Positions 2,555-30,110 of a stretch of 64,000 nt of DNA are shown here, piece by piece. Below the pieces are notes generated by a model, which had not been told where the DNA came from, did no database searches, and was given only the letters and a program-made list of their open reading frames with translations. The stretch's first letter is position 1; each line of letters opens with the position of its first letter. The stretch is taken from NCBI GenBank assembly GCA_021800795.1, contig JAJYYO010000002.1, forward strand, positions 129,354 through 193,353, written 5' to 3'. The position numbers and the translations under genes are program-made. The stretch comes from Pseudomonadota bacterium (GTDB lineage: Bacteria; Pseudomonadota; Gammaproteobacteria; Burkholderiales; Gallionellaceae).

Positions 2555-3046
2555 ATGAAAGCCAAAAAACCCGAGCAGATTACAGGTGACATTGTTAAGC
2601 CGGCAACTGCCCCAAAGCCGCTTGGCAAATCGACCGCTGCTGCCAAACCGGCAGGAAAACCTGCGCCCGCAGTCAAATCCGCTGCGGGCTCAGTCAAACC
2701 TTCCCCGGCGGCGGCCACGCCGGTCGTAAAGAAAGCAAAGGCTGAGCCTGTTGAAGCGGTTAAACAGTCAGCTGAAGCGGCAAAAGCGGCAAAGGCAGAA
2801 AAAGAACTCAAAACTGTCAAAAAACCAAAACTGAAAGTGGTGCGCGACAGCTTTACCATGCCGCACAGCGAATATGTGAAAATCGCCGAAATCAAGGAAT
2901 TGTGCCTCAAGGCGGGTGTGCAAGTAAAGAAAAGCGAAGTGCTGCGGGCCGGTGTGATTGCGTTGTGCGCAATGAACGAGGCGCAACTGAAGGGTGCGAT
3001 GAGCGCGCTGGATAAAATTAAAACCGGTCGCCCCAACAAGCAATAA
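2555..3046 (+). CDS. Lys/Ala/Pro-rich protein with a conserved C-terminal domain (histone-like/RHH-like)
   Basis: Low-complexity KPA/AKP N-terminus followed by KLKVVRDSFTMPHSEYVKIAEIKELCLKAGVQVKKSEVLRAGVIAL. Confidence 0.6.
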   Translation: MKAKKPEQITGDIVKPATAPKPLGKSTAAAKPAGKPAPAVKSAAGSVKPSPAAATPVVKKAKAEPVEAVKQSAEAAKAAKAEKELKTVKKPKLKVVRDSFTMPHSEYVKIAEIKELCLKAGVQVKKSEVLRAGVIALCAMNEAQLKGAMSALDKIKTGRPNKQ

Positions 3047-3125
3047 AAACCAGGATGCAGGAGTCTGGATGCAGGAAAACGGGTGGATACATCCTGCCTA
3101 TCTACACTACCCGCTGAATCCTGAA

Positions 3126-5213
3126 TCAGGTTGTTGTTTTTGCCTGCGTGCCGGAAAGTTGCCCGAGCAACTCGTTTTGCGCACACTTGTTTGCTGCAAG
3201 GCGTGCCTGCCTGTGGCGATATTGCCCTTCGCCATTCATCTCCCACGCCTGGCAGTTGTCCTGCAGGTATACCTTCAGGCCTTCGTCGATCACACGTTTT
3301 TTGAGCTTCTTGTCGAGGATGGGGAAACAGACTTCGATGCGCCTGAAAAAATTACGATCCATCCAGTCCGCGCTGGAAAGGTATACATCGTGTTTCAAAT
3401 CATTGCGGAAATAAAAAATGCGGGTGTGTTCCAGAAAACGCCCGATGATGGAGCGCACCTTAATGTTTTCGGACAGGCCTGGCACGCCGGGGCGCAATGC
3501 GCATACGCCGCGCACAATTAAATCCACCTTTACCCCGGCTTGCGAGGCTTCATACAGTGCGGCGATGGTGATAGGCTCCAGCAGCGCGTTCATCTTGGCG
3601 ATGATGTGGGCGCGGCGGCCCTCTTTGGCGAGCCGGGTTTCATTCTGTATGGAACGCAATACTTCCGTGTGCAGGGTAAAGGGCGATTGCCACAGGTGGT
3701 TGAGTGTGCGAACGCGCCCCAGACTGGTGAGCTGACTGAACACCTCATTGGCATCGGCGCAGACTTCCTCGTTGCTGGTAAACAGGCCGAAATCGGTATA
3801 GAGGCGTGCGGTACGCGGATGGTAGTTGCCGGTGCCCAGGTGTACGTACCTTCTCAATTTGCCATCTTCGCGGCGTACCACCATCAGCATCTTGGCGTGT
3901 GTCTTGTGCCCGACCACGCCGTATACCACGTGCGCGCCCACTTCTTCGAGGCGGTTCGCCCAGTTGATGTTGGCTTCTTCGTCGAATCGGGCCAGCAGTT
4001 CCACCACCACGGTAACTTCCTTGCCGCGCTTGGCAGCCGCGATCAATGCCTCCATCAGTGCGGAATCGGCTCCAGTGCGATACACGGTCTGCTTGATCGC
4101 GACCACATCCGGATCGCTGGCTGCCTGCTGGATGAAGTTGATGACCGGTTTGAAGGACTGGTAAGGGTGATGCAGCAGAATATCGCTTTTGCGGATCACC
4201 TTGAACATGTCCGCGCCCTTTTTCTGCAATACGCCGGGCACGCCGGGCACAAAAGCCGGAAACTTGAGATCGTCGCGCGCCACCAGACAGGGTATTTCCA
4301 TCAAACGCACCAGATTGACCGGCCCATGCACGCGGTACAGATCGTCATCGGTCAGCTTGAATTCCTTGAGCAGCAGGGCCTCAATCTGCGGGGAGCAGTT
4401 GTCGGCGATCTCCAGGCGAACCGCATCGCCAAAATGGCGCTGCGGCAATTCACCCTGCAAGCTCAGGCGCAAATTTTTGACTTCCTCCTCGTCCACGAAC
4501 AGATTGCTGTTGCGCGTCACTCGGAACTGGAAGCATCCCAGCACCTCCATGCCGCTGAACAGTTCACCGACATGCGCATGCAGAATCGAGGACAGGAAAA
4601 CGAAACCATATTCGCAGCCGCTCACTTCCGGTGGAAGCAGGATGGTGCGCGGCAACACGCGGGGCGCCTGCACGATGGCACGGGTTGAGTTGCGGCCGAA
4701 TGCGTCTTTGCCCACCAGTTCCACGGCAAAATTCAGGCTCTTGTTGAGTACGCGCGGGAACGGGTGTGCAGGGTCCAGCCCGATCGGCGTCAATACCGGC
4801 ATGACCTCACGAAAGAAGTAATCCTTCATCCATGTCTGCTGTGCTTCGTCCCAGTGGGTGCGGCGCAGGAATTTGATGCCCTGTTCGGCGAGCGCAGGGG
4901 TGATCTCATCGTTGAACAGCTGATACTGATGTTCTATCAGCTGGTGCGCCTGTTCGCGAACCAGCTTGAGTGTCTGCTGCGCACTCATGCCGTCAGCTCC
5001 CGTCGAAATTCCACCCAGCTTGATCTGCTCCATCAGCCCGGCCACGCGGATCTCGAAAAACTCATCCAGATTGCTGCTGCCGATGCAGAGGTATTTTAAA
5101 CGCTCCAGCAGCGGAATTCTGACATCTTCAGCCTGCGCGAGCACGCGACGGTTAAATTCAAGCTGACCGAGTTCCCGGTTGAGAAATTGCTGCGGGGTGA
5201 ATGTATTCGGCAA
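3126..5213 (-). CDS. ppk1: Polyphosphate kinase 1
   Basis: FLNRELGQLEFNRRVLAQA, HHPYQSF, KQTVYRTG, THAKMLMVVRRE, HLGTGNYHPRTARLYTDFGLFT. Confidence 0.97.
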   Translation of the reverse strand: MPNTFTPQQFLNRELGQLEFNRRVLAQAEDVRIPLLERLKYLCIGSSNLDEFFEIRVAGLMEQIKLGGISTGADGMSAQQTLKLVREQAHQLIEHQYQLFNDEITPALAEQGIKFLRRTHWDEAQQTWMKDYFFREVMPVLTPIGLDPAHPFPRVLNKSLNFAVELVGKDAFGRNSTRAIVQAPRVLPRTILLPPEVSGCEYGFVFLSSILHAHVGELFSGMEVLGCFQFRVTRNSNLFVDEEEVKNLRLSLQGELPQRHFGDAVRLEIADNCSPQIEALLLKEFKLTDDDLYRVHGPVNLVRLMEIPCLVARDDLKFPAFVPGVPGVLQKKGADMFKVIRKSDILLHHPYQSFKPVINFIQQAASDPDVVAIKQTVYRTGADSALMEALIAAAKRGKEVTVVVELLARFDEEANINWANRLEEVGAHVVYGVVGHKTHAKMLMVVRREDGKLRRYVHLGTGNYHPRTARLYTDFGLFTSNEEVCADANEVFSQLTSLGRVRTLNHLWQSPFTLHTEVLRSIQNETRLAKEGRRAHIIAKMNALLEPITIAALYEASQAGVKVDLIVRGVCALRPGVPGLSENIKVRSIIGRFLEHTRIFYFRNDLKHDVYLSSADWMDRNFFRRIEVCFPILDKKLKKRVIDEGLKVYLQDNCQAWEMNGEGQYRHRQARLAANKCAQNELLGQLSGTQAKTTT

Positions 5214-9133: not shown

Positions 9134-12100
9134 ATCGTGTTGTCGTATTCGCGCTCAAGCAGCGGGTTGCTGTCTTGCTCATGATGGCGACCCTTTTTGT
9201 CGCAGGCATAGTCAGCTTTATTAAACTCAATATAGAAGCCTACCCGGATCCGGTGCCGCCCCTGGTCGATATCATTACCCAGAGCACGGGTCAGTCCGCC
9301 GAGGAGATCGAGCGTTACATCACCATTCCGCTCGAAGTGCAGTTGGCCGGTATTCCTCATGTCACGACGGTGCGCACCATTTCGCTGTTCGGCCTGTCCG
9401 ATGTCAAGGTGCAGTTCACTTATGACATTAGTTACAAGGATGCCGAGCAGCAGGTGATCAATCGCTTATCTCAACTGTCGCCGCTGCCCAACGGGGCGAT
9501 GCCGCAGATTTCACCGACCAGCCCGATAGGTGAAATCCTGCGCTACCGCGTGTACGGCCCGCCGGGCTACTCCGTGCAGGATTTGAAGACCGTTGAAGAC
9601 TGGATGCTGGAGCGGCGTTTCAAGGCGGTGCCCGGCGTAATCGATGTCAATGGCTGGGGTGGCAAGAGCAAGGACTATGAAATCAGCATCGATCTGTCCA
9701 GGCTGATTCATTACGGGCTGACCATGCCGCAGGTGCTGCAGGCAATAGGCAACAGCAACCTCAATGTGGGCGGCCAAACTGTCAATTTCGGGCCTCAGGC
9801 GGCGGTGGTGCGCGGCATTGGTCTGATTCATTCGATGGAGGATATCCGCAACACGATGCTGGCCGCGAACAACGGCGCCCCTGTCTTGGTTCGCGATGTC
9901 GCGACCGTCAGCGTCAGCAATCTGCCGCGACTGGGGATTGCCGGAAACGACGGGGACGACGACATCGTGCAGGGCATCGTGTTGATGCGGCGCGGGGAAC
10001 AAAGCACGCCGACCATAAAACGGGTTGAGGCCGAGCTTGAAAAGATCAACAAATCCGGGATATTGCCGCCGGGCGTGCATATCGAGCGAATCTACGACCG
10101 CAGCGAACTGATCGGCGTGACCACGCACACTGTCATCGAAAACCTGTTGTTCGGTATCGTGCTGATTTTCATCGTGCAGTGGGTATTTCTGGGCAATCTG
10201 CGCAGTGCAATCATCGTCAGCGCGACGATTCCGTTCGCCATGTTTTTCGCCATCATCATCATGACGTTGCGCGGTGAGTCCGCCAATTTGCTGTCGGTCG
10301 GCGCCATCGATTTCGGCCTGATTGTCGATGCGACGGTGATCATGGTGGAAAATATTTTCCGCCATCTGGCCGAAAGTAAGGAAAAAACGCATGCGGAAGC
10401 GCCGCTATTCATGCAATACATTCGACCTGACTCTTCGCTGCACGGCAAATTGGCGCATATTGCCTTTTCCGCAACCGAAGTTAACCGTTCGATCTTTTTC
10501 TCCGCTGCCATCATCATCGCCGGCTTCATCCCCCTGTTTACCTTAAGCGGCGTCGAAGGGCACATTTTCGGGCCGATGGCCTCCACCTATGCTTACGCCA
10601 TCATCGGCGGGTTGATCGCGACCTTTACGATTGCGCCGGCCTTAAGCTCGCTGCTGTTGCCCGCGCATGTGACCGAGACCGAAACCTTTGCGGTGGAATG
10701 GCTGAGGCGCATTTATACGCCGCTGATCGGGTTTGCTCTTGCGAATCGGGTGATGATGCTGGGCATGGCCGCGCTGCTGGTGATATTGGCCGGATTTGCA
10801 GTGCGTTCGCTGGGAATGGAGTTCATGCCCAAGCTTGAGGAAGGCAATATGTGGATCAGAGCCTCGATGCCCGACTCCATTTCGCTGGAAGAGAGCAATG
10901 CCTACGTCAACCGGATGCGCACCCTGATCAAAAGCTATCCGGAGGTGCAAACCGTCATCTCGCAAAACGGGCGGCCTGATGACGGAACCGATGCGACCGG
11001 TTTTTTCAATGCGGAATTCTTTGTGCCGTTAATTCCTTTCGATACATGGCCCAAGGGAGTTGACAAGGAAAAACTGACTGAGGAAATCAGCTCAAAGATG
11101 CAAGCCGGGTTTCCGGGCGTGGAGTTCAATTTTTCGCAATACATCGAGGACAACGTGGAAGAAGCATCGTCCGGCGTCAAGGGACAAAACTCGGTCAAGT
11201 TGTATGGCAACGATCTGGCCGAATTGGAAAAAACCGCCGGGCAGATTCAGTCGGTGATGGCGAAAGTGCCTGGGATTACCGATCTGTCTATCTTCCGGGC
11301 GCTGGGTCAGCCGACGGTCAGGATCGACATCGACCGCGTACGGGCGGCACGTTACGGTCTGGCGCCCGGCGACATCAACGCAACGGTACAGGCAGCGATA
11401 GGCGGACAGGCTGCCGGAAACCTGTATGAGGATGGCAGTGACCGCAATTTCCCGATGATCGTTCGCATGGCTCAGCATGACCGGAAAAGTCTGGATGCGA
11501 TCAGGCGCATTACCATCGGGGCTCCCAATCCAAGCGGCAACGGGGTGGTTCAAATTCCGTTGGCCGATGTTGCCGACGTCAAACTGGTCTCCGGCGCATC
11601 CTTCATCTATCGGGAAGGCCAGGAGCGCTACATACCAATCAAATTCAGCGTGCGGGGCCGCGATCTGGGCGGCGCGGTCATGGAAGCGCAGCAAAAGGTG
11701 GCGGAACAGGTAAAAATACCCGGCGGATACCGGCTGGAGTGGGTGGGTGAATTCGGGCAAATGAATGAGGCGATGGCTCGCCTGAAGGTCGTCGTACCCT
11801 TGAGTCTGGGTCTCATCATGCTGCTGCTGTTTTTCAACTTCAGTTCGATTGCCGACACCCTGCTTGCCGCCAGCGTGATGCCGATGGCGCTGATAGGCGG
11901 GATTTTTGCACTCTATCTGACTGGAACCCCGTTCAGCGTGTCGGCAGCGATCGGTTTTATCGGCCTGTTCGGCATCTCGGTGATGGAGGGCATCATTGTG
12001 CTGACTTATTTCAATCAGCTCATCGAAACGGGAGTGGAGCGTTCACAAGCGATCCAAAAGTCCTGTCAGACCAGGTTGCGACCGGTCATGATGACCTGTT

Positions 12101-12300
12101 GCGCGGCGTGCGTCGGCCTGTTGCCCGCAGCCTTCTCGACCGGCATCGGTTCGCAGGTGCAAAAACCGTTGGCATTGGTGGTGGTGGGCGGAATTTTGCT
12201 GGCGCCCGTGCTGGTGCTGATCATCCTGCCGCTGCTGATCGATCTTTTCTCCAGACGTAAATTCCCCTTGAAGGCAGCCGTCACGGCGGCAGAACCATGA
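9130..12300 (+). CDS. CzcA-like heavy-metal efflux-type RND permease
   Basis: 1056 aa; TMS4 motif DFGLIVDATVIMVEN as in the HME-RND subfamily; overlaps the adaptor stop. Confidence 0.92.
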   Translation: MNRVVVFALKQRVAVLLMMATLFVAGIVSFIKLNIEAYPDPVPPLVDIITQSTGQSAEEIERYITIPLEVQLAGIPHVTTVRTISLFGLSDVKVQFTYDISYKDAEQQVINRLSQLSPLPNGAMPQISPTSPIGEILRYRVYGPPGYSVQDLKTVEDWMLERRFKAVPGVIDVNGWGGKSKDYEISIDLSRLIHYGLTMPQVLQAIGNSNLNVGGQTVNFGPQAAVVRGIGLIHSMEDIRNTMLAANNGAPVLVRDVATVSVSNLPRLGIAGNDGDDDIVQGIVLMRRGEQSTPTIKRVEAELEKINKSGILPPGVHIERIYDRSELIGVTTHTVIENLLFGIVLIFIVQWVFLGNLRSAIIVSATIPFAMFFAIIIMTLRGESANLLSVGAIDFGLIVDATVIMVENIFRHLAESKEKTHAEAPLFMQYIRPDSSLHGKLAHIAFSATEVNRSIFFSAAIIIAGFIPLFTLSGVEGHIFGPMASTYAYAIIGGLIATFTIAPALSSLLLPAHVTETETFAVEWLRRIYTPLIGFALANRVMMLGMAALLVILAGFAVRSLGMEFMPKLEEGNMWIRASMPDSISLEESNAYVNRMRTLIKSYPEVQTVISQNGRPDDGTDATGFFNAEFFVPLIPFDTWPKGVDKEKLTEEISSKMQAGFPGVEFNFSQYIEDNVEEASSGVKGQNSVKLYGNDLAELEKTAGQIQSVMAKVPGITDLSIFRALGQPTVRIDIDRVRAARYGLAPGDINATVQAAIGGQAAGNLYEDGSDRNFPMIVRMAQHDRKSLDAIRRITIGAPNPSGNGVVQIPLADVADVKLVSGASFIYREGQERYIPIKFSVRGRDLGGAVMEAQQKVAEQVKIPGGYRLEWVGEFGQMNEAMARLKVVVPLSLGLIMLLLFFNFSSIADTLLAASVMPMALIGGIFALYLTGTPFSVSAAIGFIGLFGISVMEGIIVLTYFNQLIETGVERSQAIQKSCQTRLRPVMMTCCAACVGLLPAAFSTGIGSQVQKPLALVVVGGILLAPVLVLIILPLLIDLFSRRKFPLKAAVTAAEP

Positions 12301-13835
12301 TGAAATCATTTCCAGAATTACGCTGTGCGGTATTCCTGATAATATTGCCGATCGTTACCGGTTGCGCGGTGGGCCCCGATTTTAAGCGGCCCGATGCGCC
12401 CAAGGCGACCGGTTATGCGCCCGCTGCCGCGAGCGTACCTGTATTGGCAGGAGAGTCGCAGCGATTCAATCCCAAGGCGGATGTCCCGTTTGACTGGTGG
12501 AAACTGTTTGGTTCACCTGAAATCAACTCACTGATAGAGCGTGCCTTCAAAGCCAACCCGGATATCGCATCCGCTCAGGCAGCCCTGCGTCAGGCGCAAC
12601 AGAATGCGGTTGCGCAACAGGGATTTTTCTATCCGACGGTCGGTGTGAGTTACTCGCCTTCACGCAACAAGCTGGCGGGCAATATGGGCGGCAACTCTCC
12701 CGGTATACAGGGTAACGGCACTGTGATTCAGACAGGCTCGAATCCTGCCGGCCCCGTCTATAATTCACCCGCCTATTACAATTTTCACGTGGCGCAGTTA
12801 ACCGTCGGTTATGTGCCGGACGTATTCGGCCTCAACCGCAGAATGGTTGAATCGGCTCAGACACAGGTAGATGCTCAAAAAATGCAACTGGAAGCGACCT
12901 ATATTACGCTTGCCTCGAACGTGGTTGCCGCAGCGATACAGGAAGCATCGCTGCGCGCGCAGATAGCCGCAATGAAAAAAGTGGTCGGTTTCAACAGGCA
13001 GATGCTTGAACTCTTGCAGGCTCAATACAGGCTGGGAGACGTATCCGGCGTGGATGTTGCGGCGCAGGAGTCATTGCTCGCGTCCGTGGAGCAGACGCTG
13101 GCGCCGCTTCAGGCACAGCTTGAGCAAACGCGCGATTTGATACGCGCGCTGGCAGGTAATTCGCCGGATGAGGAGGTCGAGGAAAAGTTTGAACTTGCAT
13201 CGCTTCATTTGCCGGTGGAACTGCCGCTCAGCCTGCCTTCCAGAATTGTCGAACAACGTCCGGATGTACGCGCTGCCGAAGAGCAGCTGCACTTTGCGAG
13301 CGCACAGGCAGGGGTGGCTATCGCCAACAGACTGCCGCAATTTGCGTTGACCGCAGCCATCGGCGGTATGGCGGATAATCCCTCATGGATGTTCCGTTCC
13401 GGCGGCGGTTTTTTCAATCTGGCGGCCAGTGTCAGTCAGACCATTTTTGACGGGGGTACGCTGCATGCCAGGTCACGCGCCGCTGAACAGGCGCTGATCG
13501 GGGCAGGTGCGCAGTATCGCAGCACGGTGATCGCCGCATTGCAGAATGTCGCCGACACGTTGTACACGATACAGTCGGATGCCTCGCAGCTCAAGGCGGC
13601 AGCATCCGGCGCACTGGCGGCCAGGACATCAGTTGAACTTGTCCGCAAACAATATCAGTTGGGCGCGGTAAATTATCAGGCACAGTTAGCGGCCGAACAA
13701 AATGATCAACTGGCTGCGATCAATCTGACGCAGGCGCAAGCCAGTCGTCTTGGCGTGACCGTCGCGCTTTACCAGGCGCTGGGTGGAGGATGGTGGAATC
13801 GCCCCGTTACGCCTGCTGATAAACGGCAGCAGTAA
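12297..13835 (+). CDS. NodT-family efflux outer-membrane lipoprotein
   Basis: Lipobox ...VTGCAVGPDFKRP; WWKLFGSPEINSLIERAFKANPDI; overlaps the permease stop. Confidence 0.93.
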   Translation: MMKSFPELRCAVFLIILPIVTGCAVGPDFKRPDAPKATGYAPAAASVPVLAGESQRFNPKADVPFDWWKLFGSPEINSLIERAFKANPDIASAQAALRQAQQNAVAQQGFFYPTVGVSYSPSRNKLAGNMGGNSPGIQGNGTVIQTGSNPAGPVYNSPAYYNFHVAQLTVGYVPDVFGLNRRMVESAQTQVDAQKMQLEATYITLASNVVAAAIQEASLRAQIAAMKKVVGFNRQMLELLQAQYRLGDVSGVDVAAQESLLASVEQTLAPLQAQLEQTRDLIRALAGNSPDEEVEEKFELASLHLPVELPLSLPSRIVEQRPDVRAAEEQLHFASAQAGVAIANRLPQFALTAAIGGMADNPSWMFRSGGGFFNLAASVSQTIFDGGTLHARSRAAEQALIGAGAQYRSTVIAALQNVADTLYTIQSDASQLKAAASGALAARTSVELVRKQYQLGAVNYQAQLAAEQNDQLAAINLTQAQASRLGVTVALYQALGGGWWNRPVTPADKRQQ

Positions 13836-13846
13836 TCAGGCTGCCG
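13824..13846. terminator. Hairpin spanning two convergent stop codons
   Basis: CGGCAGC AGTAATCAG GCTGCCG; contains TAA of the OMP gene (13833-13835) and the uppP stop (13836-13838). Confidence 0.55.
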
Positions 13847-14663
13847 ACCAGCTCACCATGCCGGTGTAATAGGTGAGCAGCACGATCAGGCCGAAGGCGA
13901 TGCGATACCAGGCGAACACGGTGAAATCGTGGCTGCTGATGAAGCGCAACAGCCAGCGCACGCACAGGAAAGCCGAGATGAAAGAGGCGGTAAAGCCCAC
14001 TGCCCACATGCCCAGGTCGGAGCCCGAAAGCAAGGCGCGTTCCTTGTACATTTCATACACCGTTGCGGCGATCAGCGTGGGCATGGCGAGGAAAAAGGTG
14101 AATTCCGTCGCGGCGCGGCGCGAAAGGCCGAAAAACAGCCCGCCTATGATGGTGGCGCCCGAACGCGAAGTGCCGGGGATCAGCGCCAGCGCCTGAGCGA
14201 AGCCGACTTTCAGGGCGCCGCGCCAGTCCAGATCGTCCGCAGTTTCCACGGTAATCACATGCTTGCGTTTTTCCGCCCACAGGATGAACAGCGCCCCGAC
14301 GATGGAGGTGACGGCGACGGTAAGCGGATTGAACAGCGCCGCCTTGATGTGTTTGCCGAAAAGCAGGCCGATAATGGCCAGCGGCAGAAAGGCGATTGCA
14401 ATGTTGAACAGAAAGCGCTTCGCGGCGGCATCGCCTTTTTGCACGCCCGCTACCAGCGAGGTAATCTTGGCTCGGTATTCCCACATCACGGCCATGATGG
14501 CAGCCGACTGGATGACGATCTCGAACAGTTTGCCGCGCTCGTCGTTGAAATGGAGCAGGCTGCCGACCACGATCAGATGACCGGTCGAGGAAATCGGCAG
14601 AAATTCGGTCAGGCCTTCGACGATGCCGAGGATGGCGGCTTTAAGCAACAAAATAGTGTCCAT
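13836..14663 (-). CDS. uppP: Undecaprenyl-diphosphatase (BacA/UppP)
   Basis: [29 protein letters not shown]. Confidence 0.96.
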
Positions 14664-14678
14664 CGTTTTTCCTGTAGC

Positions 14679-14694
14679 GCGGGTTTTAACCCGC
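14679..14694. terminator. Short palindrome at the 3' end of the DUF1289 gene
   Basis: GCGGGTT TT AACCCGC; the DUF1289 stop codon lies inside the hairpin. Confidence 0.4.
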
Positions 14695-14874
14695 CATCTC
14701 GCAAATTATTGAGATACGCCGATTCACTGCGCAGCGTTCCTCTTCGCTCATTTCCACCCAGCGCGTTACCTCTTCGAAGGTGCGCAGGCAGCTGCGGCAC
14801 ACATCATCTCCCAGCACCGTGGTGCAGTGCCCGATACACGGGCTTTCCGAAGTCACGGCGGGCGACGGTTGCAT
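14686..14874 (-). CDS. DUF1289 domain-containing protein
   Basis: [29 protein letters not shown], Cys-rich. Confidence 0.85.
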
Positions 14875-14877
14875 GAA

Positions 14878-16965
<2,088 letters not shown>

Positions 16966-19616: not shown

Positions 19617-21485
19617 ATGCTTTGGATCGCCCCGTCTGAAAAAGACCTTGCAAGTGATGCACTTGAAAAACGTCTGTGGAATGCGGCCGACCAGTTCCGC
19701 GCAAATTCAGGACTGACTGCGGCGCAGTACTCCGCGCCGGTGCTGGGCCTGATCTTCCTGCTGTTCGCCGAGACCCGTTTTGCACAGCGTCGCGCCGAAT
19801 TGGAATCCGCCGGCGCATCTTCCCGTCGCGCCGCCTCTCGTACTGACGAACCAGCCGCCTACCATGCCGAGTGCGTGATCTTTCTGCCGGAGACCGCGCG
19901 CTTTGCGCATCTGCTGAACCTGCCGGAAGGTGCGAATGTCGGACAGGCCATCAACGATGCGATGGCCGATATTGAAAAGCACAATCCGCAACTGGCAGGC
20001 GTACTGCCGCGCACATTTCAAATTTTTACCAGCACTTTACTCAAGGAACTGCTAAAGAAAGTTTCCGAGATTCCAGTCAGCCTCGACTACGATGCCTTCG
20101 GTCGCATCTACGAATACTTTCTCGGACAATTCGCCCGCACCGAAGGATCAAAGGGTGGCGAGTTCTACACGCCCGGTTCCATCGTGCGCCTGCTGGTGGA
20201 AGTAATCGAGCCATTTCACGGGCGCATCCTCGATCCCGCTTGCGGCTCCGGCGGCATGTTCGTGCAGAGTGCGCGCTTTGTGTCCGAGCACCAGCGCAAA
20301 CTCCCCTCGCCCACTGGGAGAGGGGCAGGGGGTGAGGGAGAGAAGCTCAGCGGCAATCCTGCTGATGAGCTTCTCATCCACGGCGTGGAAAAGACCGACG
20401 ACACCGGACGCCTGGCGCGCATGAACCTCGCCATCCACGGTCTCGAAGGTGACATCCGCCACGGCGGCCACATCAACAGCTACTACGACGACCCGCACGA
20501 AGCAGTCGGCAAATTCGACTTTGTCCTCGCCAATCCGCCGTTCAACGTCAACGCCGTGGACAAGGACAGGCTGGCATCGGACGTGGGTGCAGGCCGACGT
20601 TTCCCTTTCGGCGTGCCGCGTACCGACAACGCCAACATGCTGTGGATACAACTGTTTTATTCCAGTCTGAACTCCTCGGGCCGTGCCGGTTTCGTGATGG
20701 CGAACTCAGCCTCTGACGCGCGCAGCAGCGAGCAGGAAATCCGCAAACAATTGATCGAAGCCCGCGCCGTGGACGTGATGGTCGCCGTCGGCCCCAACAT
20801 GTTCTACACCGTTACGCTGCCCTGCACGCTGTGGTTCCTCGACAAAGGCAAATCCAATTGCCCCTCGCCCGCAAGCGGGATAACCAGCGACTTGGCTGAC
20901 GTAGTTGGTCAGCCTGGTCGAATGGCTAGTAGTTCCATCAGAGGGGCCGGGGGTGAGGGAGCGCTTTCCCGCCGCGACACCATCCTCTTTATCGACGCCC
21001 GCCACATCTACCGCCCGATCGACCGCGCGCATCGCGACTGGGCTGATGCACAGATAGGCTTCATCGCCAACGTCGTGCGCCTGTATCGCGGCGAAGCGCC
21101 GGACTACACCCTGGGCGGCGAAGCAGCTCGCGCCAAGCTGGAAGAAGTATTTTCTTCCCCTGCAACCCACCCCCATCCTAACCTTCCCCCTGAAGGGGAA
21201 GCGACGATTGCCCTCTCCCCTTCAAGGGGAGAGTTGGAGAGGGGATGGGTTTCTTACCGCGACATTGCTGGATTGTGCAAAGCTGCAACACTTGCAGAAA
21301 TCGAAGCGCAAGGCTGGAGCCTCAACGCCGGGCGTTATGTCGGCGTAGCGGCGGGTGAAGAAGTCAGCGACGAAGACTTCAAGGAAAAACTGGAAACGCT
21401 GAACGAGGAACTGGAAGTGCTGAATTCTGAAGCGCTGGAATTGCAGGCGCTTATCGCGCAGAATGTCGCATCGTTGTTGACCTGA
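19617..21485 (+). CDS. hsdM: Type I restriction-modification methyltransferase subunit (RM1 HsdM)
   Basis: [40 protein letters not shown] (NPPF). Three repeat-derived in-frame segments are visible. Confidence 0.95.
20301..20350. repeat. In-frame CCTCTCCC/GGGAGAGG-type palindromic repeat in hsdM1 (copy a)
   Basis: CTCCCCTCGCCCACTGGGAGAGGGGCAGGGGGTGAGGGAG, translated [13 protein letters not shown]. Confidence 0.8.
20860..20964. repeat. In-frame palindromic repeat in hsdM1 (copy b), interrupted by the 60-bp element
   Basis: CCCCTCGCCCGCAAGCGGGA | 60 nt | GAGGGGCCGGGGGTGAGGGAGCGC. Confidence 0.8.
20881..20940 (-). mobile_element. 60-bp in-frame element, copy 1 (nested in a palindrome)
   Basis: TAACCAGCGACTTGGCTGACGTAGTTGGTCAGCCTGGTCGAATGGCTAGTAGTTCCATCA; reverse complement matches 54838-54897 at about 50/60 positions. 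Confidence 0.75.
21164..21250. repeat. In-frame palindromic repeat in hsdM1 (copy c, double hairpin)
   Basis: AACCCACCCCCATCC...CTTCCCCCTGAAGGGGAAG...CTCTCCCCTTCAAGGGGAGAG...[36 protein letters not shown]. Confidence 0.8.
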
Positions 21486-21497
21486 AAGGAGCGAACC

Positions 21498-21737
21498 ATG
21501 AATTCCGCAATAGAAAACAGTATTCTCGAACGCCTCCACCGGCTGGATGTGCGCCGCCAGGCAGAGGTGCTCGATTTTGTTGACTACCTTGCCGCCAAGT
21601 CCAGCGCAGATACAACCGCCGCCAATTGGCCCAGCCTCGATCCTGCACGAGACCTCGCCAGATTTGCGGGAAAATTAACCTTCGATGAAGATGCCGTCGC
21701 CTACCAACGCCGCATCCGCGACACCGAATGGCCATGA
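21498..21737 (+). CDS. DUF2281/VapB-like antitoxin
   Basis: ILERLHRLDVRRQAEVLDFVDYLAAKSS, followed directly by a PIN-toxin remnant. Confidence 0.65.
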   Translation: MNSAIENSILERLHRLDVRRQAEVLDFVDYLAAKSSADTTAANWPSLDPARDLARFAGKLTFDEDAVAYQRRIRDTEWP

Positions 21738-21847
21738 AATACGTTCCCGACACCATCCATTTCGATGCCGTATTGCTCACCAACGACCAGCGGCTACTGA
21801 CGCTTCCCGGTTTGCGCAGTCAGCCGCTCGAACTCAAGCATGACTGA
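21734..21847 (+). pseudogene. Internally deleted PIN-domain (VapC-like) toxin remnant
   Basis: 37-aa ORF MKYVPDTIHFDAVLLTNDQRLLTLPGLRSQPLELKHD: VapC-like start fused to a PIN-like C-terminus. Confidence 0.55.
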
Positions 21848-22043
21848 TTCCTCAAGCATCGCCGAAGCATGGAGCGTGGAAGCGCTGCGCCGTTCGGCAG
21901 AAATTGACAGTGGATTGGTTGATACTGTTTCTTCTGAAGAAGTCAGTGCTGCGGTTTGCAAATTGCTGAAGGGGGAGGCTGCGCAGGCGCGCGAGCTGGA
22001 ACAGACTATTGCCCTGAATGTGGCGGGGATTCTGGAAGCGTGA
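21840..22043 (+). CDS. Small ORF: addiction-module-like segment plus HsdM-like C-terminal tail
   Basis: AWSVEALRRSAEIDSGLVDTVSSEEV resembles the C-terminus of putative addiction module antitoxins; ELEQTIALNVAGIL resembles the HsdM1 tail [14 protein letters not shown]. Confidence 0.45.
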   Translation: MTDSSSIAEAWSVEALRRSAEIDSGLVDTVSSEEVSAAVCKLLKGEAAQARELEQTIALNVAGILEA

Positions 22044-23164
22044 TGAGGGCGAACGACTGGCGAACAGCGAAGCTTGGCGATTTGGTTTCTTTTAAGACCG
22101 GCAAGCTTGACTCAAATGCCGCTGTGCCAGATGGTGACTATCCATTCTTCACTTGCTCGCAGGAGACGCTGCGAACGAATACGTACAGCTTCGATACGGA
22201 GTGTGTGCTGCTGGGCGGGAACAATGCAAACGGCATTTTTCCGCTGAAATACTTCAAGGGAAAATTCGACGCATATCAGCGTACCTATGTTGTTAAACCC
22301 CGTGACCCGGAGCATCTAACAACAAAATTTCTTTATTACTCATTACGAACAAAACTTTCAGAATTGCGCAGTTTTTCAACAGGTGCTGCGACCAAATTTT
22401 TGACGCTCACAATACTTAACGAAACGGCAATTGAAGTCCCGTCGCTTGAGGAGCAACGCCGCATCGCAGGTATCCTCTCCGCATACGATGAGCTGATCGA
22501 AAACAACCAGCGGCGCATCCGCATACTGGAAGACATGGCGCGCAGCCTCTACCGCGAATGGTTCGTCAACTTCCGCTATCCCGGCTATGAATCCATACCG
22601 CTCGTCAATTCGTCGCTTGGGCAGATTCCGCAGGGGTGGGAGGCAAAGAAAATTGCAGAGTTATTGGCGAAGGTTTCTCGTCAGGGGAAGATCAAAACAC
22701 AAGACTATCTACAGGCAGGAGATTTGCCTGTTATAGATCAAGGGCGAGAACTGGTCGGAGGTTACACGAATGATGCCGATGTTGAATATTCAGGCGAGCT
22801 GCCTGTGATTGTGTTTGGAGATCATACGAGGATTCTCAAGTTTATAGATTTCCCGTTTGCTTGTGGAGCTGATGGAACGCAGCAATTGCGTTCCAATGAC
22901 GAGCGAATGCCTGTAAGCCTTTTTTTCTACACGCTCTCTGCTATCGAGTTGTCTGACTTTGCTTATGCCAGGCATTTCAAGTTTCTGAAAGAAGAGTTGG
23001 TGGTTGTGCCCATTGCTAAGGTAGCAACTGCTTTTTCAGAGCGGGTTGATCCGATAAAAAGGCTGGTTCGAATCTTGCAGCAACAGTCGGACAATCTTCG
23101 CCGCACCCGCGACCTGCTGCTTCCGCGCTTGCTGTCTGGGCAAGTCAACCTTAAAGAGAGCTGA
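22043..23164 (+). CDS. hsdS: Type I restriction-modification specificity subunit (RM1 HsdS)
   Basis: Two TRD/CR units: WRTAKLGDLVSFKTG...LSAYDELIENNQRRI; IPQGWEAKKIAELL...RTRDLLLPRLLSGQV. ATG at 22043 overlaps the preceding stop. Confidence 0.93.
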   Translation: MRANDWRTAKLGDLVSFKTGKLDSNAAVPDGDYPFFTCSQETLRTNTYSFDTECVLLGGNNANGIFPLKYFKGKFDAYQRTYVVKPRDPEHLTTKFLYYSLRTKLSELRSFSTGAATKFLTLTILNETAIEVPSLEEQRRIAGILSAYDELIENNQRRIRILEDMARSLYREWFVNFRYPGYESIPLVNSSLGQIPQGWEAKKIAELLAKVSRQGKIKTQDYLQAGDLPVIDQGRELVGGYTNDADVEYSGELPVIVFGDHTRILKFIDFPFACGADGTQQLRSNDERMPVSLFFYTLSAIELSDFAYARHFKFLKEELVVVPIAKVATAFSERVDPIKRLVRILQQQSDNLRRTRDLLLPRLLSGQVNLKES

Positions 23165-23167
23165 GTT

Positions 23168-25699
23168 ATGCCTACGCATCTTGACGCAATTGGTTACGTG
23201 AACGACCTCTCCACGGAGGTCAACGAACCTTGGTTCAAAATGATCTGCGACCTTGCGGCTGTGAGCGGCGTGTCGGAACTTGATCAGATGGCACACGACA
23301 CGCTCTTTGCCCTCTATACCGATAAGGCAAGCTACATCGGAATGACGTCTGCCGCCGCCATGGCTACTCCCGCTACGGCTGCTGCTTCACCGGATTTTCT
23401 CGACCAGCTTTCAAGTTTTACGAATTTTAAACTTCTTGGCGATACACTCGAAGTCAGTTTCAAAAAAAGAATCACCCTGATTTTCGGGGCGAATGGCAGC
23501 GGCAAATCCAGTCTTTGTGAATCGCTGAAGGTTCTCGCATCTACCGAACCATCAAGTCGACCACTCCAGAACGTCAGAGTGGCAGGCGCAGGAACTCCTG
23601 CATTTCGCTTCAAGTTTAAGAGCGATACAGCGCATCAAGCGTGGACGCCCAGCATTGGCTACGGCCCAAGGCGAACGATAGTCAAATACTTCGACACGGC
23701 GATTGCGATCAGGAATGTGAAAAACGCGGTTGAACCAGGGCGTGTCATAGTGCTGACTCCGTTCAGACTCCACGTCTTCGAGTGGACAAAGGCACTGACA
23801 ACGAAATTGCGCGAAGCACTCCAGCGCGAGCAGCAGGGCAACTCGGTAAAGCTGGCCCAAACGTTGGGAGAAATTCGAACGGACTTCGCAAGGTTCAAAG
23901 GCTATCCATTGTCAGGCATTGACGAAAAGACTGTTGCCATCATTTCTGCCCAAATAAAACTTGGCGAGGGTTTTGCAGAGCAAAAACTGTTGAGCGAAAA
24001 GCAGGCTGCCGCCGCAGAGTTGGAGAAAGCCGCGTCTGAAGAAGGCTTGAAGCTGCTCAGAGCGGAGCATCGCGAGTTGGAGGTCTTTCTAACCTCGATC
24101 AATACGATGCTTAACTCAGCCGAAGGGTTGTGGGCGATTGAACCCACAAGTAAAGCGGAAGTGCTCGCTAGGAAACGAGCTGAGCAGGAACTGTTGGCTA
24201 AGGCGCTCATCCCGAAAGGTGGGACACTAGAAGGCTTGCTGGCACTGATACGCGCAGCATCGCCACTGTGCAAAATGGACGAGGCAGCAGGTCATGCATG
24301 TCCGCTCTGCAACCGTGACATGGGCATCCCAGAAGTAGAGTTATTTAAACGCTATCACGACCTGTTGGTTGGCGAACTGGAGAAGGACATCGCTACCCTA
24401 AAGGCGGACCTTGCCAAGGCTGTCGAGTTCGCAAACTCTGTCGTCAAAGTGGATCGGAATGGGTGGGGGAAATACACAAACATCCAAGCGGAAGTGCTGA
24501 CAGCCGCGAAGGCCGACTCAGACCACATTGTTGCCAGTTGCGACGTATCCAAAGAGCCTACGGCAGAGGCGAAAGCGGCGCTTGAATCGCTCAAATTATT
24601 AGCGACAACGTGTGCGGCACAGCTAGAATCGAAAAAGAACGCCATCGAAGTCGCCGCAAAAGGCAGAGAGGAATTGATAAAGCAATTGGCGAAGCTGCGC
24701 GACGAAATCGAGCCATTGGAGTATGCGCAAACCATTGCTGCACAATTGAATAAATTGCGAGGTGCAAAATGGAGAGTGGATAGGTCGAAATTCTGGAGCA
24801 ACAAGCTCCCTGCATTTACTCAGGTGCTTACAAAGATAACGAAGAAAGCAAAGGAAGCGCACGAAGAGTTGGTGGTCGTGGATTTTGAGGCACGCCTGAA
24901 CGCGGAATATAGGGCTCTCACGGAAAAAGATATGGCGGCATTTGGCGTGATGCTCGCTCGAAAAGGAACTGATGCAGCCGTAACGGTATTGCCGCAGATA
25001 GGAGGAAAAGACATTGAAGGCGTGCTGAGCGAAGGGGAGCAACGGGTTCACGCTCTCGCGTTGTTTTTTGCTGAACTTGAAACTTGCCCTCAGTCGGTTT
25101 TGGTATTTGATGATCCGATCTCCAGCTTCGATTACAACTACATTGCGAACTATTGTGCCCGATTGCGCGACTTCACGCTGAAGCATCCGACGCGGCAGAT
25201 TATCGTCCTGACTCACAACTGGGAGTTCTTCGTTCAACTCCAGACTTCACTGAATGGGGCTGGTTTAAATGGTCAGCTCTCGGTTCAGGTGCTTGAGAAT
25301 TGCACTGTCGTCGCAGACTACAGCGAAAAGGCAGATGAGCTAAAAGCCGACATTACTGCGATTCTCGCTACTGCAGGAGAACCAAGTAAAAGCTTGAAGG
25401 AGGAGATGGCTGGCAAAATGCGGCGTCTGATTGAGTCGGTGGTAAACACTCATGTTTTCAACAAGCAGCGACATCAATTTAAGCAGAAGAGCCAGCCAGT
25501 CTCGGAGTTTCATGAATTCACAAAACTCGTACCGCTGTTGCCTGCTGAAGCTGCAAAACTGCGTGATCTCTATGCAAAACTAAGCATAAGCGAGCACGAT
25601 GACCCACGAAATGCTTACGTCAACACGGATAAATCCGCTTTTCAAAGCCGTTACGACACTATTACTGCTGTCGAGACTGACTTAATTTCGAGAAAATAG
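23168..25699 (+). CDS. SMC/Rad50-type ABC ATPase with zinc-hook CxxC, RloC/PrrC-like
   Basis: Walker A FGANGSGKSSL, CPLCNRDM hook, signature LSEGEQRVHALALF, Walker B VLVFDDPISSFDY, H-switch IVLTHNW, C-terminal RRLIESV...SISEHDDP. Confidence 0.8.
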   Translation: MPTHLDAIGYVNDLSTEVNEPWFKMICDLAAVSGVSELDQMAHDTLFALYTDKASYIGMTSAAAMATPATAAASPDFLDQLSSFTNFKLLGDTLEVSFKKRITLIFGANGSGKSSLCESLKVLASTEPSSRPLQNVRVAGAGTPAFRFKFKSDTAHQAWTPSIGYGPRRTIVKYFDTAIAIRNVKNAVEPGRVIVLTPFRLHVFEWTKALTTKLREALQREQQGNSVKLAQTLGEIRTDFARFKGYPLSGIDEKTVAIISAQIKLGEGFAEQKLLSEKQAAAAELEKAASEEGLKLLRAEHRELEVFLTSINTMLNSAEGLWAIEPTSKAEVLARKRAEQELLAKALIPKGGTLEGLLALIRAASPLCKMDEAAGHACPLCNRDMGIPEVELFKRYHDLLVGELEKDIATLKADLAKAVEFANSVVKVDRNGWGKYTNIQAEVLTAAKADSDHIVASCDVSKEPTAEAKAALESLKLLATTCAAQLESKKNAIEVAAKGREELIKQLAKLRDEIEPLEYAQTIAAQLNKLRGAKWRVDRSKFWSNKLPAFTQVLTKITKKAKEAHEELVVVDFEARLNAEYRALTEKDMAAFGVMLARKGTDAAVTVLPQIGGKDIEGVLSEGEQRVHALALFFAELETCPQSVLVFDDPISSFDYNYIANYCARLRDFTLKHPTRQIIVLTHNWEFFVQLQTSLNGAGLNGQLSVQVLENCTVVADYSEKADELKADITAILATAGEPSKSLKEEMAGKMRRLIESVVNTHVFNKQRHQFKQKSQPVSEFHEFTKLVPLLPAEAAKLRDLYAKLSISEHDDPRNAYVNTDKSAFQSRYDTITAVETDLISRK

Positions 25700-25766
25700 C
25701 GATGTACCACGCTGCATTGAAGATCAGTTCATCGAACAACACGCTATCCAGCGCTTCCCTTTTTAC

Positions 25767-25794
25767 GATGGGAAAAGTAGCATGTTTTCCCATC
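25767..25794. promoter_or_regulatory. Perfect 10-bp inverted repeat, operator candidate
   Basis: GATGGGAAAA GTAGCATG TTTTCCCATC, 21 bp upstream of the wHTH ATG. Confidence 0.55.
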
Positions 25795-25815
25795 AAAACT
25801 GTTAATATTTTGACC

Positions 25816-25986
25816 ATGCAATCCATTAATAAAAAAGCACTTTTAAGAATATACAGCTGTTGGAGGGGTTGTGCATTCATGCCGAATGATTTTGTCGAGG
25901 ATTTTAGCCGCGACCAGATTGAAAACGCGCTTACGGGATTATGCCGCGAGGGTAAGAGACGCCATATCTGCGGGGTGTGCGGCTGA
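25816..25986 (+). CDS. Short wHTH protein resembling the N-terminal part of DUF6088/AbiEi-type antitoxins, possibly truncated
   Basis: MQSINKKALLRIYSCWRGCAFMPNDFVEDFSRDQIENALTGLCREGKRRHICGVCG, 56 aa. Confidence 0.5.
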   Translation: MQSINKKALLRIYSCWRGCAFMPNDFVEDFSRDQIENALTGLCREGKRRHICGVCG

Positions 25987-26732
25987 TGGAATCGAAATCC
26001 GAATTCAGCGATTACATCGTGTATGTGGATGAAAGCGGTGATCACAGCCTGACTTCGATAGATGCGGGCTACCCAGTATTCGTGTTGTCATTCTGCGTGT
26101 TTCGCAAGGATGACTATGCCGAGAGGGTTACTCCTGCGGTGCGTAAACATAAATTCGATGTGTTCGGGCACGATATGGTGGTGCTGCACGAACATGAAAT
26201 ACGCAAGAAAACCGGTGCGTTTGCACGTCTGGGAAAGGAAGCGCGTGAAGGTTTTATGGAGTCGCTGACCAATATCATTGCGGCTGCCGACTTTACGCTG
26301 ATTGCGGTGGTGATTGACAAACGCCGCTTGGCAAACAAGTATATAAATCCTGCGCATCCATATCATTTGGCGATGGCGTTTGGGCTGGAGCGGCTCCATC
26401 GCTTGGTGCGGAGTCGGGGGCAGGATGATCGCATTACGCACATTGTTTGCGAGGCACGCGGATCGAAAGAAAACGCTGAGCTGGAGCTGGAGTTTCGCCG
26501 CATCCGTGATGGTGCGAATTATTTCAATAAGCGGTTGCCGTTTGAGTTGATGATTGCAGACAAGAAAACCAATTCGGAGGGAATGCAGTTGGCTGATTTA
26601 ACGGCTCGGCCTATCGGTATTTCGGTATTACGTCCCGAGCAGCTGAACCGTGCGATGGCAATATTGGAAAGCAAATTTTATCGGGATGGTGCGGGGAATA
26701 AGAACGGCTTCGGGCTAAAAGTGTTTCCCTAG
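25986..26732 (+). CDS. DUF3800 domain-containing protein
   Basis: IVYVDESGDHSL; TLIAVVIDKRRL; MQLADLTARPIG. Start overlaps the wHTH stop (TGATG). Confidence 0.85.
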   Translation: MESKSEFSDYIVYVDESGDHSLTSIDAGYPVFVLSFCVFRKDDYAERVTPAVRKHKFDVFGHDMVVLHEHEIRKKTGAFARLGKEAREGFMESLTNIIAAADFTLIAVVIDKRRLANKYINPAHPYHLAMAFGLERLHRLVRSRGQDDRITHIVCEARGSKENAELELEFRRIRDGANYFNKRLPFELMIADKKTNSEGMQLADLTARPIGISVLRPEQLNRAMAILESKFYRDGAGNKNGFGLKVFP

Positions 26733-26957: not shown

Positions 26958-29900
26958 ATGAGTTTTCCGCATTACACCGAAGATAGTCTCGTTGAGCAAC
27001 CTGCCATCCAGCTTTTTGCCGAGCTGGGCTGGGAGACGCTATCGGCTTCGGATGAGGTGACGGGTGCAGGCGCACTTGCAGCGTGCGCTCCCTCACCCCA
27101 GCCCTCTCCCGGTGGGAGAGGATGTTATTTGGGTCGCGAGACAAAATCCGAGGTGGTGCTAGGCGCGAGATTGCGCAACGTGATGGCGAGGCTGAATCCA
27201 TCGCTGCCACCAGAAGCCATCTCCGCCGCCGTGGATGAATTGTCGCGTGACCGTTCCGCGATGACGCCTGCCGCCGCAAACCGCGAGCTGTGGGATTCGA
27301 TGCGCGACGGGGTGAAGGTGTCTGTGCCTGATACAGCGAAAGGCGGAGTGAAGATCGAGCGGGTGCGGGTGGTGGATTGGGATGATCCCGCCGCCAACGA
27401 TTTTCTGCTGGTCAGCCAGATGACCATTGTCGGCCAGCTCTACACCTGCCGCCCGGATTTGATCGGTTTCGTGAATGGACTGCCGTGGGTGGTGATCGAA
27501 TTGAAGAAGCCGGGTGTGCCTGCGAAGCAAGCCTTTGATGGCAACCTGACAAGTTACAAGCACGCGCAGAACGGCGCGCCGTCGTTGTTCTGGTCTAATG
27601 CGTTGCTGATCGCCTCAAATGGCACGGATAGTCGCGTTGGTTCGCTGACTGCCGATTGGGAACGGTTCTTTGAGTGGAAGCGTATCGAAAGCGAAGACGA
27701 GATACGTCGTGTGTCGCTGGAAGTGATGTTGCGCGGACTATGTGAACCTGCGCGCCTGCTGGATATGGTGGAAAACTACACGCTGTTTTCAGAGCACAAG
27801 AGCGGTCTTACCAAGATCATTGGGCAAAACCATCAATTCATCGGCGTGAACAATGCTATCCGCGCCATGCTCAAGGCGCGCGAAGAAGGCCACGGGCGAG
27901 GCGGCGTGTTCTGGCAGACGCAGGGCTCAGGCAAGAGTTTTTCAATGGTGTTCTTTGCGCAAAAGGTGTTGCGCAAGGTTCTTGGTAATTGGACGTTTGT
28001 GGTTGTTACCGACCGGGTTGAACTGGACGAGCAGATTGCCAAGACATTTGCGGCCTGTGGTGCGGTGAGCGATGCTGCCGCCTGCCACGCGCAAAGCGGC
28101 GCGCAATTGCGCGAATTGCTCTCCGGCAATAATCGCTATGTGTTTACGCTGATCCACAAGTTCCAGACGGCTGAATTGTTGTGCGACCGGCGCGATGTGA
28201 TTGTGCTGACCGACGAGGCGCACCGCAGTCAGTACGATATGCTGGCGCTGAACATGCGCGCAGCATTGCCGAATGCGATGTTTGTCGCGTTCACCGGCAC
28301 GCCGCTGATCGCAGGCGAAGAGCGCACACGCGAGGTGTTCGGCGATTACGTTTCCATTTACGACTTCCAGCAGTCCGTCGAAGATGGTGCGACGGTGCCG
28401 CTGTTCTATGAAAATCGCACGCCTGAATTGCATCTGGATAATCCGGACCTGAACGATGACATCTACGAATTGATCGAGAACGCCGATTTATCTGATGAGG
28501 CCGAGAAAAAGTTGGAACGCGAACTGGGGCGGCAATACCACCTGATTACTCGTGACGACCGGCTGGATACGGTGGCGCAGGACATCGTGAAGCATTTCCT
28601 CGGGCGCGGTTTTCAGGGCAAGGCGATGGTAGTGTCCATCGATAAGGCGACGGCGCTGCGCATGTACGACAAGGTGCGCAAGTATTGGCCGCACCCTCAC
28701 CCCAACCCTCTCCCAAGGGGAGAGGGGGCTGATATTGATATGGCTGTGGTGGTATCAGCAGGGCAGAACGAGATTGAGCAGATGGCGAAGCTGGGCATTG
28801 ACATCGTGCCGCACCGCAAGCGCATGAACGATGAAAAGCTGGATGAAAAATTCAAGGACACAACCGATCCGCTGCGGCTGGTCTTCGTCTGTGCGATGTG
28901 GCTGACAGGCTTTGATGCGCCGAGCTGTTCGACCATCTATCTCGACAAACCGATGCGCAACCACACGCTGATGCAGACCATCGCACGCGCTAACCGCGTG
29001 TACCCCGGCAAGCACAGCGGCTTGATCGTGGACTACGCCAACGTGTTCGCTTCGCTGGAGAAGGCGCTGGCGATTTACGGCAAAGGTGGCGGCGGAGAAA
29101 TGCCGGTGCGCGACAAGAAGGCGTTGGCGGATGAGCTGCGCGTTGCTGTGAATGACGCGAATGTGTTTTGCCGGGAGCATGGCGTCGCTTTGGCGGAAAT
29201 CGAAACCATGCCAACGGCAAACTTTGCACAAGCTGGCGCGATCAATGCTGCCGCAGACCGCCTGATGGCACCGGAAGCAATCAAGCGCGACTTCCTCGCG
29301 CTGGAGGCATTGGTCAGCAGCCTGTATCGCGCGGTGAAGCCAGATCCGGTAGCGATAGAGTTTGTGCAACGTTGCGGTTGTCTTGCCGCAATCGCACAGT
29401 GCATCCGCACTGTGACCGAGCCGCCGGATATTTCGCACATCATGCAGGGTATTCAGGATTTGCTGGACGAATCTATCGCGGCAGAGCCGTTCAAGATTCG
29501 GCAAACGACTTCAGCCTATGGGCAGATCGACCTTTCCAAGATTAATTTTGAGGCGTTGCGCAAACGCTTCGAGAACAAGAAGCCGAGCAACACGGATGTT
29601 GAACGTTTGAAAGCAGCGGTGCGGGCGCAACTGGAACGTATGGTGCGTTTCAACCCGACCCGCGCCGACTATTTGCAAAAGTTCCAGGAATTGATTGAGG
29701 GTTACAACTCGGGTAGTCGCAACATCGAAGAGGTTTTCAAAGAGCTGCTGGCGCTATCGTCTGTACTGACGGAAGAGCAGACGCGCCATGTGCGCGAAAA
29801 CCTCACCGAAGAAGAGTTAACCATCATGGATATTCTGACCCGGCCCGCTCCTGAACTGACCAAAGAGGAGCGGGAAGAAGTGAAGAAGGTCGCACACCAT

Positions 29901-30110
29901 CTGCTGGAGACGCTGCATAAGTTGCTGGTGCTGGGATGGAGGCAAAAAATCTCTACCCGCGCCCGGGTGAAGATCGAAATCGAGAATGCGCTTGATGAAG
30001 GCTTGCCGCGCGCTTACTCCAAAGAAATCTATGAGTCCAAGTGCTCAGCCGTATTTGAACATGTGTATCAGAGTTATCAAGGTGAAGGTCGTAGCGTCTA
30101 TGCCGCGTGA
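26958..30110 (+). CDS. hsdR: Type I restriction endonuclease subunit R (RM1 HsdR)
   Basis: PDLIGFVNGLPWVVIELKKPG nuclease motif; WQTQGSGKSFSMVFF; LTDEAHRSQ; VFVCAMWLTGFDAP. Confidence 0.96.
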   Translation: MSFPHYTEDSLVEQPAIQLFAELGWETLSASDEVTGAGALAACAPSPQPSPGGRGCYLGRETKSEVVLGARLRNVMARLNPSLPPEAISAAVDELSRDRSAMTPAAANRELWDSMRDGVKVSVPDTAKGGVKIERVRVVDWDDPAANDFLLVSQMTIVGQLYTCRPDLIGFVNGLPWVVIELKKPGVPAKQAFDGNLTSYKHAQNGAPSLFWSNALLIASNGTDSRVGSLTADWERFFEWKRIESEDEIRRVSLEVMLRGLCEPARLLDMVENYTLFSEHKSGLTKIIGQNHQFIGVNNAIRAMLKAREEGHGRGGVFWQTQGSGKSFSMVFFAQKVLRKVLGNWTFVVVTDRVELDEQIAKTFAACGAVSDAAACHAQSGAQLRELLSGNNRYVFTLIHKFQTAELLCDRRDVIVLTDEAHRSQYDMLALNMRAALPNAMFVAFTGTPLIAGEERTREVFGDYVSIYDFQQSVEDGATVPLFYENRTPELHLDNPDLNDDIYELIENADLSDEAEKKLERELGRQYHLITRDDRLDTVAQDIVKHFLGRGFQGKAMVVSIDKATALRMYDKVRKYWPHPHPNPLPRGEGADIDMAVVVSAGQNEIEQMAKLGIDIVPHRKRMNDEKLDEKFKDTTDPLRLVFVCAMWLTGFDAPSCSTIYLDKPMRNHTLMQTIARANRVYPGKHSGLIVDYANVFASLEKALAIYGKGGGGEMPVRDKKALADELRVAVNDANVFCREHGVALAEIETMPTANFAQAGAINAAADRLMAPEAIKRDFLALEALVSSLYRAVKPDPVAIEFVQRCGCLAAIAQCIRTVTEPPDISHIMQGIQDLLDESIAAEPFKIRQTTSAYGQIDLSKINFEALRKRFENKKPSNTDVERLKAAVRAQLERMVRFNPTRADYLQKFQELIEGYNSGSRNIEEVFKELLALSSVLTEEQTRHVRENLTEEELTIMDILTRPAPELTKEEREEVKKVAHHLLETLHKLLVLGWRQKISTRARVKIEIENALDEGLPRAYSKEIYESKCSAVFEHVYQSYQGEGRSVYAA
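27087..27124. repeat. In-frame palindromic repeat in hsdR1 (copy 1)
   Basis: CCTCACCCCAGCCCTCTCCCGGTGGGAGAGG; PSPQPSPGGRG between EVTGAG and LGRETKSEVV. Confidence 0.8.
28691..28728. repeat. In-frame palindromic repeat in hsdR1 (copy 2)
   Basis: GCACCCTCACCCCAACCCTCTCCCAAGGGGAGAGGGGG; PHPNPLPRGEG. Confidence 0.8.

Follow-up and report, generated by a model that had tools for sequence, protein, structure and literature searches.

Organization of the locus

The window, that is, the whole 64,000-nucleotide stretch of DNA analysed here, carries a type I restriction-modification (R-M) operon in the order hsdM-hsdS-[ATPase]-hsdR (Table 1). The neighbours HsdM, HsdS, DUF3800 and HsdR were all identified, in agreement with the R-M setting given for the ATPase gene in the original prediction. 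The ATPase ORF is intact, with an ATG start and no internal stops, and 3 bases separate the hsdS stop from this ATG; the same 3-base gap was found in four related loci. The nearest solved structures were 3khk for the window HsdM and EcoR124 HsdR (residues 132-479) for the window HsdR. To HsdR linked to PrrC, whose partner is a type Ic enzyme, the window HsdR was 25-28% identical over approximately 345 aa, which does not assign the window system to type Ic. A promoter and terminator scan gave signals at background level.

Table 1. Genes, domains and motifs at the locus (window coordinates)
Feature	Position	Strand	Remarks
HsdM, type I methyltransferase	19617..21485	+	same operon
HsdS, specificity subunit	21956..23164	+	ORF from TTG; in-frame ATG at 22043
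Zinc-hook ABC-ATPase with C-terminal HEPN-like domain (RloC-like/PDC-S06 superfamily)	23168..25699	+	843 aa
N-terminal helical domain and linker	23168..23398	+	residues 1-77; AF2 model; S06 match from residue 6
Walker A, GANGSGKS	23486..23509	+	residues 107-114
Zinc hook, CPLC	24299..24310	+	residues 378-381; flanked by two long helical arms
ABC signature, LSEGEQ	25025..25042	+	residues 620-625
Walker B, VLVFDD	25097..25114	+	residues 644-649
C-terminal HEPN-like domain	25256..25696	+	residues 697-843; recombinant relative to the remainder of the gene
R752-x3-E756 (RRLIE)	25421..25435	+	start of candidate RNase triad; on helix 741-763
H810	25595..25597	+	third candidate RNase triad residue; conserved S..EHDDPRN loop following helix 792-805
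DUF3800 gene	25977..26732	+	variable slot between ATPase gene and hsdR
HsdR, type I restriction subunit	26958..30110	+	

Several smaller elements were also observed in the operon. In the gap between hsdM and hsdS (21498-21847) there is a small antitoxin ORF, DUF2281-like but under the Pfam cut-off, together with a short tail without a Pfam match that we read as resembling a PIN toxin; this insert is absent from related locus L039 (related loci are designated by L numbers). Behind the ATPase gene, positions 25759-25971 contain the remains of a DUF6088 antitoxin, which span 71 aa and have 72% identity to the intact L039 copy, and the DUF3800 gene now lies downstream of them. GC-rich palindromic repeats have been inserted in frame within hsdM (20323, 20944 and 21164-21251) and hsdR (27090 and 28694) and are translated as part of both; four pattern matches were obtained, against 0.01 expected.

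Motifs and family assignment of the 843-aa protein

A Rad50- and RloC-like architecture had been proposed from the Walker A and B, LSEGEQ and CPLC motifs. All of these were located (Table 1), the protein matched Pfam AAA_13 (3.9e-20), SMC_N and AAA_23, and the best structural matches of its full-length AlphaFold model (pLDDT 81) were Rad50 and SMC proteins, which bears out the proposal. In PADLOC, the best family match was PDC-S06 (7.6e-47, residues 6-694), and the S06 model PDLC04888 matched near full length (8.8e-41, residues 17-839). The PrrC model PDLC02360 gave a weak match confined to residues 645-697, the Walker B stretch.

In the AF2 model, the first ~100 residues, previously unrecognised, open with three helices (7-18, 21-33 and 40-50) that make up a small domain; a low-confidence linker (residues 61-72, pLDDT <50) comes next, and the first ABC strand lies at residue 78. 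The PADLOC S06 models reach back to residue 6, so this N-terminal region is native to the family and not foreign. At the other end, the arrangement R752-x3-E756-x53-H810 was computed from the sequence.

Predicted fold of the C-terminal domain

The model of the C-terminal domain was a helical bundle (pLDDT 75, pTM 0.72) in which R752 and E756 share one long helix and H810 lies just past another. When this model was compared with 350,542 PDB chains using Foldseek, 12 of the top 20 matches were HEPN or HEPN-like, the best being 1wwp, 1ufb (probability 0.97), 2q00, 1wty and 8yuf, with several HepT/HEPN toxins ranked next; the E-values of single matches were weak (0.1-1). We take 1wwp, 1ufb, 2q00 and 1wty to be HEPN-like, and most of the remaining matches among these 12 are named in their records as HEPN or its toxin-antitoxin complexes. 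An unrelated fold, the result that the original prediction had set against itself, was not what headed the list. Pfam HEPN models gave no match to the domain, and the canonical HEPN Rx4-6H motif is absent, residues 803-805 being A, K and L with no Arg, while H810 is conserved. A Foldseek comparison with viral structures returned nothing informative. HEPN is the superfamily to which the RloC and PrrC nuclease domains belong (PMC3710099).

Conservation of the protein and its candidate RNase triad

We searched 84,980 species genomes with a two-sequence profile and found 26 relatives, and none were found in phage and viral collections. The hook cysteines C378/C381, the ABC motifs, R752, E756 and H810 were invariant in a 22-member family alignment (32-86% identity). 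They were likewise invariant in a diverged 12-member alignment assembled from plasmids and genomes, in which identity to the window protein is 16-36% for the other members and only 16-22% for ten of them. The invariance of R752, E756 and H810 in both alignments indicates that the predicted R-x3-E...H arrangement is not a chance occurrence. Invariant columns made up 20% of the C-terminal 143 residues compared to 1.4% of the coil, and the C-terminal part was conserved to about the same degree as the ATPase lobes. Across the gene, dN/dS was approximately 0.12 against the two nearest relatives, and the gene is under purifying selection. The C-terminal domain was not found as a separate stand-alone gene in 369 genomes of the class.

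Gene neighbourhoods across relatives

The window and the relatives with at least 47% identity were grouped as clade A (18 loci, with the partial or broken copies L049, L051, L052 and L058 placed by identity only), and ten relatives with 32-39% identity formed the sister clade B. Type I R-M genes lay nearby in 12 of the 18 clade-A loci compared to 0 of the 10 clade-B loci. The ATPase gene was directly 3' of hsdS in ten loci (window, L038, L039, L040, L041, L042, L044, L047, L048 and L052). The R-M-linked clade-A loci belong to Pseudomonadota, Hydrogenedentes, Thermodesulfobacteriota, cyanobacteria, Chlorobiota and Verrucomicrobiota, and their HsdR subunits are unrelated. Between L038 and the window the ATPase is 84% identical, whereas HsdR is only 38% and HsdM 36% identical, which indicates insertion of this gene into distinct R-M operons at one and the same position.

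The interval between the ATPase gene and hsdR is occupied by DUF3800 in the window, DUF6088 and AbiEii in L039, Schlafen AlbA in L040, YhcG in L044 and an unassigned 579-aa protein in L038; it is empty in L041, L042 and L048. Six clade-A loci had no R-M gene, and three of these (L043, L049 and L051) end close upstream. Among the others, L046 adjoins a RecD2-like gene and L050 adjoins DUF4365 genes. In Chlorobium ferrooxidans, the L045 gene (50% identical; locus 10001-16913) is followed directly by HamA and a DEAD helicase, a Hachiman-like pair, with no R-M gene. Two further features were noted: in L052 (2105-3103) only the C-terminal 333 residues, comprising the second ATPase lobe and the HEPN-like domain, are left behind hsdS, apparently as a decayed copy; and L038 encodes a nucleotidyltransferase substrate-binding (HEPN-like) protein between hsdM and hsdS (2843-3262).

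Recombination at the 3' end of the gene

Divergence at four-fold sites among the window, L038 and L039 rose from 0.24 to 0.64-0.77 past codon 630-682, and none of the 500 permutations run for each of the three pairs reached this jump. The stretch concerned, the 3' third of the gene (window 25230-25696), takes in the HEPN-like domain together with the last part of the ATPase lobe, with synonymous divergence increased approximately threefold. Over the C-terminal domain, L039 and L048 of Chlorobiota are about equally close to the window protein, L048 being only 49% identical to it overall. These results indicate that the 3' end of the gene was exchanged by recombination while R, E and H were kept. 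Such exchange of the C-terminal domain is suggestive of an arms race acting on the putative effector.

Relationship to RloC and PrrC

In these comparisons, canonical RloC was represented by matches to the PrrC model that have the RloC layout. Trees of the ATPase head set the window clade and S06-type proteins apart from canonical RloC-like proteins and PrrC (support 100/99, to be read with caution because branches are long). By profile comparison, we linked the C-termini of the window clade to those of S06-type proteins with a probability of 88% (reversed control ~1%), and those of canonical RloC-like proteins to PrrC at 71-76%; between the two groups, only short pieces matched. A 57% local match of the C-terminal domain to PrrC was dismissed, as the triads were not aligned. 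The R-x3-E...H layout is common to window-clade, S06-type, canonical RloC-like and PrrC proteins. A search by sequence for solved relatives of PrrC or canonical RloC returned none.

The assignment to the RloC/PrrC type was upheld in part. The protein has the build of RloC, and the prrC slot is kept in related loci; PrrC membership is ruled out by its size (843 aa, twice that of PrrC), its zinc hook and the partial coverage of the PrrC model. The expected C-terminal likeness extends to a HEPN-resembling model and the shared motif, beyond which the profiles do not match, and the ATPase tree places the protein in a lineage apart from canonical RloC and PrrC. Judged from its ATPase architecture and length, the protein is RloC-like in the broad sense of the original 2008 definition, in a lineage separate from canonical RloC.

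Proposed function and alternative explanations

With RloC's build in PrrC's place, the best reading is a latent RNase toxin, an RloC-like ABC-ATPase carrying a domain of the HEPN superfamily, that guards the type I R-M system (probability roughly 0.6). Sensing and clamping would fall to the Rad50-like ATPase and its zinc-hook coiled coil, and the C-terminal HEPN-like domain would serve as effector, with R752, E756 and H810 forming a putative metal-independent RNase site. In an unchallenged cell the toxin would be kept silent through its own ATPase and hook, and probably also by binding to co-translated HsdMSR. Blocking of the R-M enzyme by a phage anti-restriction factor, or the presence of DNA ends, might then cause an ATP-driven rearrangement that frees the nuclease. 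The freed nuclease would cut RNA, most likely tRNA anticodon loops, and translation would stop; anticodon cleavage is plausible.

A competing explanation differs in the part given to the Hsd proteins. The protein might be a stand-alone, DNA-end-sensing toxin of the RloC type that only shares a defence island with R-M operons and moves with them, with Hsd neither silencing nor triggering it. RloC is indeed governed by an internal switch driven by DNA and ATP and functions in the absence of R-M (PMC3874168), and clade B (0/10) as well as some clade-A loci, such as L045 with HamA and a helicase and L050 with DUF4365, lack R-M genes. The repeated exact placement between hsdS and hsdR, the coupling-type spacing in five loci and the diverged Hsd sets go beyond co-residence in an island, and we regard this explanation as unlikely. 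It is still less probable that the protein is a Rad50/SbcC-like DNA repair factor or DNA-clamping R-M accessory with a structural, non-catalytic C-terminal domain. Its body does match Rad50/SMC best, but Rad50/SbcC have no such C-terminal domain (PMC2610378), this domain is among the best conserved parts of the protein with its charged R, E and H invariant, and the window operon encodes no Mre11-like partner.

A variant compatible with the guard part of the preferred reading concerns the substrate alone: the HEPN-like domain might be an RNase of another specificity, directed at mRNA or rRNA. HEPN RNases include the mRNA cutters RnlA/LsoA (PMC3710099), and profile comparison does not connect the C-terminal domain with RloC or PrrC; against this, the characterised anticodon nucleases likewise carry R-x3-E...H on an ABC-ATPase, and RloC loses its tRNase activity when R, E or H of the motif is mutated (PMC2610378). 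We consider such a specificity possible, though rather doubtful. Extending the guard reading, we tentatively suggest, at less than even odds, that these proteins form a distinct lineage of zinc-hook ABC-HEPN toxins in the PrrC slot, modular across unrelated hsd systems and swapping HEPN by recombination, so that a single sensor would guard numerous R-M enzymes while its RNase effector varies.

Comparison with known systems

The predicted system is of a kind known in outline, and its lineage is separate. Lamassu LmuB/JetABC and Rad50 have the SMC/Rad50 ATPase architecture in common with the window protein but lack the fused HEPN-like domain, their nucleases being separate subunits. Within PADLOC, the protein is a divergent member of PDC-S06 (~158 bits, compared to ~1000 bits for the typical member L034 against its own model), a phage defence candidate; canonical RloC-like proteins match other models of the same group.

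The gene order of the window operon corresponds to that of EcoprrI, hsdM-hsdS-prrC-hsdR (PMC3014915), and PrrC likewise fuses an ABC-ATPase to a C-terminal R-x3-E...H domain. PrrC is only 341-416 aa long and has neither coiled coil nor hook, whereas the window protein has both. RloC of Geobacillus kaustophilus and Acinetobacter baylyi (Davidov and Kaufmann 2008; Klaiman et al. 2013) carries a C-terminal R-x3-E...H of the HEPN superfamily, and canonical RloC is marked by a Zn-responsive tRNase activity that excises the wobble nucleotide. As in the 2008 definition of RloC, the ABC ATPase motifs of the window protein are split by a coiled coil with a CXXC zinc hook, and its length falls within the RloC range (658-897 aa). 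The published RloC motif is Arg-X3-Glu-X36-52-His; the spacing of 53 between the invariant E and H in the window protein is one beyond this range, and EHDDPRN stands where RloC has SH. The recurrent hsdS-hsdR slot also distinguishes the window lineage, since RloC is linked to type I or III R-M in only 8 of 72 cases.

PrrC is silenced by an outside R-M partner, and RloC has been proposed to have dropped this partner by gaining an internal switch. A switch of the RloC type consistently placed in PrrC's slot offers a natural case for asking whether both controls coexist, and the window lineage raises the further question of whether type I R-M systems can exchange guard toxins with one another.
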